From positions 1 to 46,908 of the forward strand of contig CANJLN010000006.1 of assembly GCA_947475175.1 (NCBI GenBank): a stretch of DNA of 46,908 nt, read 5' to 3'. This document shows, in pieces, positions 12,947-45,568 of the stretch (the stretch's first letter is position 1; the number at the start of each line of letters is the position of its first letter). The notes under the pieces were generated by a model, which saw nothing but the letters and a program-made list of their open reading frames with translations, was not told the DNA's origin and ran no database searches. The translations under genes and the position numbers were made by a program. Origin of the DNA: Alphaproteobacteria bacterium. GTDB taxonomy: Bacteria > Pseudomonadota > Alphaproteobacteria > Paracaedibacterales > CAIULA01.

Positions 12947-14398
12947 TTGCTTTTCTCTATGTCATTTTCAGACTCTCCACTGTCATCCTCGGACTTGTTC
13001 CGAGGATCTAAGGATTCTCGCAATAAATGCGAGAATGACAAGACGGGGAAAATAGGTTGCGCAAAAGGTCTTTTGTTTTTACTACTCTTCCTTTTCCTCA
13101 AACCAACAGTCTCCTTTGGCACAGATATCCCTGTTGGAAATTTTATTGTTGATGATGAAATTGAATCAACGATTACTCAATGGTTACAAGATATATTTGA
13201 TGTTGCTGGCATTAGAATAAAGCCACAAGTGCTCATTCTTGTTGATCCAAACGTCAATGCTGGCGCTACATTTGGCGGTCAAGTTATTGTTTTCACAGGA
13301 CTCATTTTGAAATGTCAGAATGCCGCTCAAATCCTTGGCGTTCTGGCACATGAATCAGGACACATTGCCGGTGCCCATACAGCAAGAATTGATGCTGCTC
13401 AACAACAAGCTCTCGTCCCTGCTATTGCTTCTACTCTTCTAGGAGGAGCAGCCGCTCTTCTAACAGGAAACACAGCTCCTCTTCTCGCTGGCGCCGCTGG
13501 AGGATTACAGGTGTTTGAGCGCGGTCTTTTAAAGTATTCACGAACCCAAGAAGAAACTGCTGATAGTGCAGCCCTCAAATACCTAGAACTTCTTAATTGG
13601 CCATCAGAGGGGCTATATGAATTTTTAAATCTGCTCGGCAATAATTACAGTGGTCAAATTGACCCTTATACCTCAACGCACCCTTTGTCAGAAGACAGAA
13701 GATCAAAAATACATCTCTATATCACTCAACAAAAGTCTGCGAAAAATACCAAGGTCCCTGAAAAATACGAACTGCAGTTTCAAAGAATCAAAGCAAAAAT
13801 CAAAGGATTCATGGAACAACCTCAAAAAACGCTACGTGACTTACCAGCAAAGGATACATCCATCGCAGCACGTTATGGACGATCCATTGCTCTGTATCGA
13901 CTGGGTAAACTTCAAGAGGCTTTTGTTGTGTTGGATCAATTACTCAAAGAATTTCCCAATGACCCTTATTTTCTTGAATTAAAAGGGCAAATTTACTTTG
14001 AAACTGGAAAAATTAAAGACGCGGTTGTTTGCTACAGAGCATCCGTTAAACAACGCCCTGGGGCGCCCATTCTGAATTTAATTCTAGCGCACGCTTTAAT
14101 TGAAGCATCTCCTCAAAGAAACGAACAAGAATTGAACGAAGCGATACAAGCTTTAAAGCTCACAACCGAAAAAAATGCTGAGAATATCTTTGCCTGGAGA
14201 TTGCTAGCCAGTGCTTATGGGAAAAACCAACAACCGGAACATGCCGCCGGTTGTCTTGCTGAAGAAGCATGGTTAAAGGGAGACACCCATATGGCCAAAG
14301 CTCAGGCGCAGAAAGCCATCAAATGTTCGAATTCGGCCATTGCTAAACGAGCTCAAGACATTCTTAATGAAACGAAGAATGAAGCAGCAAGGTCGTAA
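12947..14398 (+). CDS. bepA: BepA-like periplasmic M48 metalloprotease with TPR repeats
   Basis: Zinc metalloprotease of the M48 family with C-terminal tetratricopeptide repeats. E. coli BepA/YfgC has this build and maintains outer-membrane beta-barrel assembly. The HExxH motif is HESGH at residues 135-139, the third zinc ligand lies in QEETADSAAL near residue 204, and TPR-like helices fill 270-480. The length of 483 aa matches BepA. AAAAGGA at 12931-12937 sits 9 bases before a TTG start; an ATG lies at codon 5. A 60-nt palindromic repeat encodes residues 12-32, between the start and the signal-peptide core (GLLFLLLFLFL, 41-51), giving an odd polar N-terminal extension. How this longer N-region is handled by Sec is unclear. 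Probably co-transcribed with rne. Confidence 0.88.
   Translation: MLFSMSFSDSPLSSSDLFRGSKDSRNKCENDKTGKIGCAKGLLFLLLFLFLKPTVSFGTDIPVGNFIVDDEIESTITQWLQDIFDVAGIRIKPQVLILVDPNVNAGATFGGQVIVFTGLILKCQNAAQILGVLAHESGHIAGAHTARIDAAQQQALVPAIASTLLGGAAALLTGNTAPLLAGAAGGLQVFERGLLKYSRTQEETADSAALKYLELLNWPSEGLYEFLNLLGNNYSGQIDPYTSTHPLSEDRRSKIHLYITQQKSAKNTKVPEKYELQFQRIKAKIKGFMEQPQKTLRDLPAKDTSIAARYGRSIALYRLGKLQEAFVVLDQLLKEFPNDPYFLELKGQIYFETGKIKDAVVCYRASVKQRPGAPILNLILAHALIEASPQRNEQELNEAIQALKLTTEKNAENIFAWRLLASAYGKNQQPEHAAGCLAEEAWLKGDTHMAKAQAQKAIKCSNSAIAKRAQDILNETKNEAARS
12981..13040 (+). repeat. 60-nt A+B palindromic element inside the bepA-like gene
   Basis: Bounded by TGTCAT and ATGACA. Module A (CCTCGGACTTGTTCCGAGG) is followed by module B (TTCTCGCAATAAATGCGAGAA). 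Read in the gene's frame it gives SSSDLFRGSKDSRNKCEND with no stop. It is almost identical to the copy in recF. Confidence 0.92.
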
Positions 14399-29795: not shown

Positions 29796-31013
29796 TCAAC
29801 CAAGTGTTAGTGTTGCATTGTCTACACAGAAGAATTGTCCTTGCCCCATAAGGGTTTCAAACAACAAAGGATCCGTCCCTGTCAACCAGGTGTGGACAGA
29901 ACCTTTAAACTCTTCTTGATGTGTATTTTGTAAAGCACATATCTGATCGAACAGTACCACACGGTGATGAAAATCTAAATGGGCAATTACGTCATCGAGT
30001 AATAAAACAGTCAATCGATCATCATTTCGAACTTTGTGCTGAATAAAAGAAAATAAAGCCGCAATTAAGAGAATTTTTTGCTCGCCTGTTGAACAAAAAG
30101 AAGCCGTCATATTCTTGGTTTGGTGAATCATTTCCCAGTCGCTTCGATGAGGTCCGATTTTGGTTGTGCCGCTTTCTCTGTCTGTATTTCTATTTTTTGT
30201 GAGAGCTTCCATAAATCGAGCTTCCACATTCACAGCATAATCATTTTCAATCCAAGAATCGATCTCCCCTATCATTTGGCTTTGAAACCGAGGAAACAAG
30301 GGGTGTTGATATTCTTGACCTTGATTCAATTTTTTCATCAGCTGTTGACGGGCAACAGCAATGGCAACACCCTGAGAAGCGATTTGTTCCTCGAGTGAAC
30401 TCAGCCACAAAGGATCTCCGCCTTGTCTGAGCACCATCAATCTTTCTCTTAAAGCATGATCATAACGATTGAGTCGTTCACTATGAAGTGGGTCTTCTCC
30501 ATAAACAAAACGGTCAACAAACTTGCGTCTGTCAGAAGGAGACTCAAGGAAAAGACGATCTGTTTCAGGGGTTAACCAAAAAACAGTCAGCCATTCTGTA
30601 AATGGCCCCTGCCCTTTGACAGATTCATGTTGAATTTTGTGAATTCTTTTCTCACTACCCGTGAGCGGATTGTTTTCAAGGCCGGTTGAAAGCTGAATAT
30701 CTTGGCTCAAAATGATTGAGCTTGCCCACAAAAGACCTTTTTCAAATTTTACTTTTTCCGCAGTGTCATTCTCGCATTTATTGCGAGAATCTATAGATCC
30801 TCGGAACAAGTCCGAGGATGACGAAGAAAGGTCAGATAATTTAGCGCCGCGTAACCCGCGTCCCGGAGAAAAAAGAGAAAGCGCTTCCAACACATTCGTC
30901 TTCCCAGCTCCGTTTGGACCAGTTAGCACAACAGGAGCTGAGCTCAGAGTTAGATCCAAAGAAGTATAATTTCTAAAATGATGCAGAGAAAGATGGGTAA
31001 TCGCCTGCATCAT
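29796..31013 (-). CDS. recF: RecF recombination mediator carrying a palindromic-element insert
   Basis: SMC-like ATPase that helps load RecA at single-strand gaps. Walker A is GPNGAGKT (residues 32-39); the C-terminal signature and Walker B region are in FCSTGEQKILLIAALF and LLLDDVIAHLD. At 405 aa it is longer than typical RecF (about 360-380). Part of the excess is residues 64-84, encoded by the 60-nt palindromic element. The insert falls between LSPGRGLRGAKLSDL and the next core strand, a surface loop just after the P-loop helix, and leaves the frame open. The enzyme is therefore probably still functional. Confidence 0.93.
   Translation of the reverse strand: MMQAITHLSLHHFRNYTSLDLTLSSAPVVLTGPNGAGKTNVLEALSLFSPGRGLRGAKLSDLSSSSSDLFRGSIDSRNKCENDTAEKVKFEKGLLWASSIILSQDIQLSTGLENNPLTGSEKRIHKIQHESVKGQGPFTEWLTVFWLTPETDRLFLESPSDRRKFVDRFVYGEDPLHSERLNRYDHALRERLMVLRQGGDPLWLSSLEEQIASQGVAIAVARQQLMKKLNQGQEYQHPLFPRFQSQMIGEIDSWIENDYAVNVEARFMEALTKNRNTDRESGTTKIGPHRSDWEMIHQTKNMTASFCSTGEQKILLIAALFSFIQHKVRNDDRLTVLLLDDVIAHLDFHHRVVLFDQICALQNTHQEEFKGSVHTWLTGTDPLLFETLMGQGQFFCVDNATLTLG
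30764..30823 (-). repeat. 60-nt A+B palindromic element inside recF
   Basis: Reverse complement of the element at 12981-13040, so relative to the coding strand both lie in the same direction. It differs by a few bases in the linker and at the last end base. In the recF frame it reads SSSDLFRGSIDSRNKCEND without a stop. It adds exactly 60 nt, so the frame is preserved. Confidence 0.92.
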
Positions 31014-32479: not shown

Positions 32480-32755
32480 ATGGCAACAGCACAACCAAAG
32501 ATTAATATTCCAAAAAACATTAAAGAGACCACCAAAACTTCAGGCCGTGGCTTCGCTTCGATGTCTCGTGACAGAGTCGTCGCCATTGCCAAAAAGGGTG
32601 GTCAAGCACGAGCTGAACAGCTCGGTCACAACGGTTATGTAGAACTTGGTCAAAAAGGTGGACATATCAGAGCCGAACAGCTCGGTCACGATGGCTATGT
32701 CAGCATGGGTAGAAAAGGTGGGCAAGCGTCAGGGGAATCAAGAAAAAACAATTAG
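32480..32755 (+). CDS. KGG-repeat stress protein, 91 aa
   Basis: Small basic protein of the stress-induced KGG/YciG-like repeat type. Three related units are visible: AKKGGQARAEQLGHNGYVEL, GQKGGHIRAEQLGHDGYVSM and GRKGGQASGESRKNN. They form a tandem repeat of about 22-23 residues that is also clear at DNA level. The family is linked to stress responses in other bacteria but its molecular function is not settled. It has a near-consensus promoter and a strong ribosome-binding site, so high expression is likely. It converges on grxC with seven bases between stops. Confidence 0.85.
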   Translation: MATAQPKINIPKNIKETTKTSGRGFASMSRDRVVAIAKKGGQARAEQLGHNGYVELGQKGGHIRAEQLGHDGYVSMGRKGGQASGESRKNN

Positions 32756-37128: not shown

Positions 37129-37136
37129 TCAGAATC

Positions 37137-37219
37137 GTCATTGCGAGGAGCTTCGCTGTGTGGCAATCCAGGAAAAGTAAAACTGGATCGCCACAGCTTT
37201 TCGAGCTTCGCGATGACGG
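37137..37219. repeat. 83-nt imperfect hairpin repeat between convergent genes
   Basis: GTCATTGCGAGGAGCTTCGC...GGCAATCCAG pairs imperfectly with CTGGATCGCCACAGC...GCGATGAC across an 11-base loop. It belongs to the same family as 2334-2415 and sits in the 100-bp gap between two convergent stops, again suggesting a terminator-like position. Confidence 0.8.
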
Positions 37220-45438: not shown

Positions 45439-45568
45439 AGATCCTCGGAACAAGTCCGAGGATGACAGATGTGGTCTAAGGATGACGAATGTAGTCTTTA
45501 AGGATGACAGTCACGTAAATTAGTGTGAAATAAAATCGGGTCATCCTCGGACTTGTTCCGAGGATCTA
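45439..45568. repeat. Inverted pair of module A palindromes with tandem fragments between
   Basis: A complete module A at 45439-45467 and another in opposite orientation at 45541-45568 frame a short tandem series. The series has units beginning AGGATGAC at 45459, 45479 and 45501, spaced 20-22 bases apart. It fills most of the 192-bp gap between uvrD and prmA. The series looks like partial duplications of the repeat's right edge. Confidence 0.75.

Follow-up and report, generated by a model that had tools for sequence, protein, structure and literature searches.

Why do two unrelated proteins encoded on the same stretch of DNA share nearly the same 20-residue peptide? The stretch (here called the window) is 46,908 nt long and corresponds to contig C6 of a 1.57-Mb genome in 66 contigs, which was placed in the family Paracaedibacteraceae, order Holosporales. 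One of the two genes is bepA-like and encodes an M48 peptidase with TPR (12947 to 14398, plus strand, starting at TTG 12947 or ATG 12959); its match to NF052400 (E value = 2 × 10−46) scores 158.8 bits against a curated cutoff of 570, so the BepA assignment holds at the family level only. The other is recF (29796 to 31013, minus strand, 405 amino acids with the insert), which matches TIGR00611 with 226 bits, above the cutoff of 172. The first-pass annotation had described a 60-nt element in both genes and had proposed selection for a stop-free frame as a possible cause of the shared peptide, with a preference for that polar, flexible peptide as the alternative. The repeat translates as ...PLSSSDLFRGSKDSRNKCENDKTGK... 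in the bepA-like gene and as ...SSSSSDLFRGSIDSRNKCENDTAEK... in recF, and the peptide SSSDLFRGS(K/I)DSRNKCEND is indeed read in both. The recF copy (30765 to 30822, minus strand) has the same gene-relative sense and frame as the bepA copy, as had been stated; the two cores agree at 56 of 58 positions, and over a longer aligned stretch 91 of 113 positions match.

The bepA copy (window positions 12981 to 13040) consists of a 58-nt core, GTCATC...GAATGAC at 12982 to 13039, plus one base on each side. Its left repeat, REP A (12982 to 13008, plus strand), is made up of GTC, a 9-bp stem with a 5-nt loop (ATCCTCGGA CTTGT TCCGAGGAT), and C; a 4-nt spacer, TAAG (13009 to 13012, plus strand), follows, and REP B (13013 to 13039, plus strand) then runs in the opposite orientation, with G, a second 9-bp stem and 5-nt loop (ATTCTCGCA ATAAA TGCGAGAAT), and a closing GAC. 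The two hairpins thus face each other, with TGTC and GACA on the outside. The predicted RNA fold of the 60-mer has an energy of −27.2 kcal/mol (z = −5.6 versus shuffles). The 60-nt element is present at the position given for it, but the repeated unit is longer: a 5′ half-unit of 21 nt, a partial REP left arm (GTCATTTTCAGAC followed by TCTCCACT; 12961 to 12981, plus strand), lies upstream of the dimer, and an A-rich right arm, approximately GAAAAAATA (13040 to 13069, plus strand), is weakly conserved among copies and has no sharp end.

By the definition of Di Nocera et al. (2013, PMC3733652), as given in the available text of that paper, the element is a head-head (HH) dimer of CGTC-type REPs. 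The tag of this type is present as TGTC at 12981 to 12984 and GACA at 13037 to 13040, the outer left base being mostly T or C among copies. Both REPs have 9-bp stems and 5-nt loops, within the range for the type (stems of 8 to 9 bp with A-T pairs first, loops of 4 to 5 nt). Their tails resemble CTA, CTT, or CCA and run into a shared spacer of 2 to 5 nt; in CGTC-type REPs the tail is short, unpaired, and mostly CCA. The HH arrangement, with tags outside, which predominates in the type, is found in 50 complete dimers; single units and opposite pairs also occur.

Other arrangements and other repeats were seen along the way. REP A sites number 162 genome-wide, and many of them form pairs in the opposite arrangement, with tags inside. 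Two such pairs of single REP A units, about 100 to 180 bp apart, lie in the window at 301 to 479 and 45442 to 45564. An inverted repeat of another type (CGTCATTGCGAGG...GCAATCCAGGAAA), which looks like a second CGTC-type REP, occurs at 2375 to 2414 and 37136 to 37175, and two 60-nt units that are 70% identical stand in tandem at 32592 to 32711.

We then considered whether the bepA copy is translated at all. The insert had been placed between the start codon and the signal-peptide core, and this is likely. The core (GLLFLLLFLFLKPTVSFG) comes after the repeat, and two start candidates lie upstream of it: TTG 12947, preceded by a possible Shine-Dalgarno sequence (AAAGGAA, found by eye), and ATG 12959 to 12961, the G of which opens the half-unit; either could serve. 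The region that aligns with the relatives' N terminus reads IGCAKGLLFLLLFLFLKPTVSFG, and because neither ATG nor GTG occurs after the repeat and ahead of the signal-peptide core, translation probably starts upstream of the repeat. Under the alternative, which the first-pass annotation had named as a finding that would refute its reading, the copy would sit untranslated in a 5′ leader, with translation starting after it. In two relatives of the same family (G004 and G005), bepA has no insert and its ATG start codon opens the signal peptide (MLKV(I/L)FLA...), and N-terminal REPs are often leaders of misannotated genes according to the available text of PMC3733652. From the repeat to the end of the signal-peptide core, one start-like codon occurs, an in-frame TTG at 13073, but it falls within the hydrophobic core, so that a protein begun there would lack a charged n-region. 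From the upstream candidates, no stop codon interrupts the frame across the repeat. We therefore regard an untranslated bepA copy as unlikely. A bepA was looked for in the same-genus relative (G001, described below) and was not found. In searches of solved structures, the BepA match begins after the insert, and the RecF match breaks at the insert.

Similar situations were observed in other putatively exported proteins. Five proteins that look exported (BepA, CoxB, a BamA/TamA-like protein, a Cys-loop channel, and a trypsin-like protein) carry the dimer a short way ahead of a signal-peptide-like core. In CoxB (C13:19610 to 20569), codons 20 to 85 show an N terminus encoded by two different REP elements, the second of which appears to supply the signal-peptide core (NWIATALSGFAMTTTAMASA); the CoxB proteins of G001, G003, G004, and G009 have ordinary, unrelated signal peptides. 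CoxB translation may instead begin at a GTG following the first repeat or at codon 75. In the BamA/TamA-like gene (GTG) and the channel gene (ATG), a start codon follows right after the repeat, which suggests a leader copy. Some N-terminal copies may thus be untranslated.

To place the two window copies in context, we took a census of the genome. A 54-nt pattern matched 27 times and its reversed control not once. Frame-independent DNA junction patterns (spacers of 2 to 12 nt, the range that all frame and dimer counts cover) gave 46 places, to which 6 with mismatches and 1 found by DNA search were added, making 53. Three of these, with a broken or diverged left half (C8:22035, C14:31805, and C22:4665; longest spanning ORF, 94 amino acids), were left out. 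The remaining 50 complete dimers comprise 21 in ORFs of 264 to 1,117 amino acids and 29 that are intergenic. The next-longest spanning ORFs have 175 amino acids (antisense to one of the host genes) and 151 amino acids, neither with a family match, so the 250-amino-acid line for calling a copy in-gene is not critical.

Frames were counted from the first G of GTCATC, with +1 being the frame used in bepA and recF. Family scans of the hosts, several with matches below the curated cutoffs that indicate family resemblance only, gave for the +1 copies SfsA, IspE, XerC/D, a heptosyltransferase, the BepA-like protein, RecF, an NadD-like protein, AddB (two copies), AddA, CoxB, the BamA/TamA-like protein, the Cys-loop channel, FolC, GlyS, YgfZ, a CCA/PcnB-type nucleotidyltransferase, a formyltransferase, and a beta-lactamase-fold protein. 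A nearly identical insert of about 20 residues is therefore carried by 18 unrelated proteins of this genome. The hosts of the −1 copies are a BioC-like and the trypsin-like protein. In the formyltransferase the upstream half-unit stands in tandem (LTLSSSD three times), and addA, which adjoins addB with its two dimers, also carries one dimer. Two further in-gene dimers with longer spacers (C18:17362 and C12:329 to 393, the latter a near-symmetric homodimer) fall outside the counts; both are in the SSSDLFRGS frame.

The frame usage of the 21 in-gene copies was strongly skewed: 19 were in +1 (SSSDLFRGSKDSRNKCEND), 2 in −1, an antisense frame, and none in +2, the other stop-free sense frame. Other frames are thus not used as often as this one; their equally frequent use is what the first-pass annotation had said would count against its reading. 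We compared this usage with the frames that the element leaves open. Of the intergenic dimers, 17 have a 4-nt spacer; in their cores, +2 was free of stop codons in all 17, −1 in 12, +1 in 10, and −2 in 7. Only some frames are open, as had been claimed, and three of them (+1, +2, and −1) are open in most cores. When the 21-nt arms were added, the corresponding numbers were 7, 6, 5, and 1 of 17, still with no excess of +1. Under equal chances for three open frames, at least 19 of 21 copies in one frame has a probability of 8 × 10−8. When the six copies near N termini, for which annotation is doubtful, were set aside, the ratio of +1 to −1 was 14:1 (P value = 2 × 10−6). Of the copies flanked on each side by matches to a family profile, a subset chosen by reading the family-scan results, 10 were in +1 and 1 (BioC-like) in −1 (P value = 1 × 10−4; against equal orientation, P value = 0.012).

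Selection for an open frame nevertheless leaves clear traces. The spacer was 4 nt long in 21 of 21 in-gene copies but in only 17 of 29 intergenic ones (the others having 2, 3, or 5 nt; P value = 5 × 10−4). The upstream half-unit (GTCATCCTCGGAC, with up to 4 mismatches) lay a multiple of 3 nt away, and so in phase, in all 10 in-gene cases versus 5 of 11 intergenic ones (P value = 0.012). The spacer TTAA closes +1, and all copies that have it are intergenic. If stop-free frames were all that mattered, any open frame of the right length would be kept and the shared frame would be a by-product. The constant frame-preserving spacer and the intergenic confinement of TTAA agree with this account, but three frames are open and genes use them 19:0:2, so selection against stops alone is not enough, and we consider it quite improbable as the whole explanation. 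In-frame selection is real, then, but insufficient, and the alternative that had been offered, recast as tolerance of one particular peptide, fits best.

A bias could also arise at insertion, if the mechanism preferred one strand and codon phase in transcribed genes, through a target site or a link with transcription. We examined orientation in the 15 of 29 intergenic copies that lie between codirectional genes, as defined by simple ORF calls (one of these copies is in a 142-amino-acid ORF); 7 were sense and 8 antisense, although such positions are also likely to be transcribed. The in-gene ratio differed from this (19:2 versus 7:8, Fisher test, P value = 0.007; 14:1 versus 7:8, P value = 0.014). 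With no bias between codirectional genes, the orientation bias is a property of in-gene copies. Moreover, a strand bias alone would not fix the codon phase, and the flanks, examined for a common target motif or a duplicated target, showed neither outside the conserved arms. Two observations are in keeping with an insertion bias: the in-gene bias is strong although the +1 and −1 peptides are of similar polarity, and the only Y1 transposase gene found in the genome (Y1_Tnp, C45:5629 to 5985) has no such REP in the surrounding 6 kb. On balance, a biased insertion mechanism seems improbable.

The properties of the three peptides follow the usage of their frames. The +1 peptide (SSSDLFRGSKDSRNKCEND) has a GRAVY of −1.74 and 11 turn-forming residues out of 19, the −1 peptide (SFSHLLRESLDPRNKSEDD) a GRAVY of −1.46 and 9 such residues, and the +2 peptide (HPRTCSEDLKILAINARMT) a GRAVY of −0.31 and 4. 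The order of polarity and turn content matches frame use, which at most suggests a role for the peptide, the gap between +1 and −1 being small. The −1 peptide is nearly as hydrophilic as the +1 peptide, so the reason why −1 is disfavored is not obvious, and the two −1 copies (BioC-like and trypsin-like) speak against selection on the peptide.

Next, we looked into how the insertions are distributed among relatives. Across 38 genomes, including the source genome, the junction pattern occurred at 46 places in the source genome, at 5 in G001, a same-genus relative ('Candidatus Paracaedibacteraceae bacterium clean674', DAHVSZ; Paracaedibacteraceae, Holosporales), and at none in 35; a single place in G009 looks like chance. 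Three of the four sites compared in G001 were empty (glyS, the first addB site, and recF), while the heptosyltransferase insert was shared; the latter was absent in the four more distant relatives shown. RecF of G001 is 81% identical overall and lacks 22 residues exactly at the insert, leaving a loop of 9 amino acids, and the RecF proteins of five other members of the same bacterial family and of one of the same order also have short loops there (G003 being left out of this comparison). An AlphaFold model of RecF, built from a two-sequence alignment, was discarded at a mean pLDDT of 33.5, so the position of the insert in RecF rests on sequence alignment only. AddB of G001 carries its own insertion at approximately residue 56, again in +1; it is a diverged dimer whose hairpin B is enlarged. 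Another REP type occurs in G001 near the second AddB site. Over the two sister species, addB inserts are thus found at three places, with two dimers here and the own dimer plus the other REP type in G001.

This distribution also bears on whether the peptide is useful in itself, being positively selected as a tag or linker. Its near identity in 18 unrelated proteins would fit such a function, but of the four insertions compared, three (recF, first addB, and glyS) are missing from G001, no role unites the hosts, and 29 of 50 copies lie outside genes; we hold this explanation to be very improbable.

The explanation that we favor, and consider fairly probable, is that a REP dimer has multiplied in this lineage and that its in-gene survivors are those with a kept frame and a tolerated peptide. 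The dimer, with its 5′ half-unit and weak right arm, would have spread in the Paracaedibacteraceae lineage, inserting both within genes and between them. Insertion would have been blind to frame, and selection would then have acted on length and on whether the peptide is tolerated; the polar, turn-rich +1 peptide would account for nearly all survivors, survival in the −1 antisense frame would be rare, and the second sense frame, with its less polar peptide, is not seen. In bepA, the copy would have displaced the ancestral start region, probably adding about 35 residues before the signal-peptide core. We infer that selection on the peptide, not the chemistry of insertion, makes the frame bias, and the host proteins presumably work with the insert. 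More speculatively, and in our view improbably, the element might be a stealth invader of genes, with a sequence that itself encodes, in one sense frame, a widely tolerated peptide; insertion into genes would then be its normal niche, and in bepA and coxB the inserts could be turning into new signal-peptide regions.

The kind of element is already known from Rickettsia RPE-4 and RPE-6 and from intragenic CGTC REPs. The HH dimers of CGTC REPs in genes described in the available text of PMC3733652 share with ours the TGTC end variant, the 9-bp stem with A-T pairs first, the 5-nt loop, tags outside, a heterodimeric build, intragenic copies that encode 20 to 30 amino acids (the residues are listed in Additional file 3 of that paper), repair genes among the hosts, and no dedicated transposase; they differ in organism and sequence. 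The same text equates RPE-6 and RPE-4 with CGTC-1 and CGTC-4 and classes them as CGTC REPs. RPE-4, RPE-6, and RPE-7 carry ATGAC motifs and, according to the available text of PMC3767692, are palindromes inserted in frame into essential genes that are unrelated to each other, the host being an intracellular alphaproteobacterium. Like RPEs, our element lies in frame in conserved protein genes and is absent from orthologues in relatives (bepA, addB, glyS, and recF). By lineage it is not an RPE, the organism belonging to the Paracaedibacteraceae and not to the genus Rickettsia; furthermore, Rickettsia insertions are, as far as the source text goes, mostly common across Rickettsia, whereas here three of the four compared are absent in G001, in the order Holosporales. 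Six insert peptides gave no matches in NCBIfam at E values up to 10, although NCBIfam may hold no RPE models. RPE-1 (Ogata et al. 2000, 2002, as cited in the accessible parts of PMC2229807 and PMC10969869) is alike in being an in-frame, protein-coding palindrome with a conserved peptide, and in the guanylate kinase case it is tolerated by the host protein; its elements measure 105 to 146 bp, unlike the dimer here. GTAG-type REPs and REPINs with RAYT transposases are likewise small inverted dimers spread through genomes, but here no GTAG end and no transposase next to the copies were seen. In the literature searched, we found no paper on such repeats in Holosporales or Paracaedibacter, and a frame count with an intergenic control was not found in the available text of PMC3733652 or PMC3767692. 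What is new is the lineage and the measured one-frame rule.

These results extend protein-coding palindromes to the Holosporales with a controlled frame test. They also call for caution in annotation, given that 18 proteins carry nearly the same 20-residue insert and that so similar an insert produces false local matches between unrelated proteins, as seen here. Moreover, recent full and empty sites within one genus make the survival of selfish DNA in essential proteins directly testable with respect to peptide, frame, and site.
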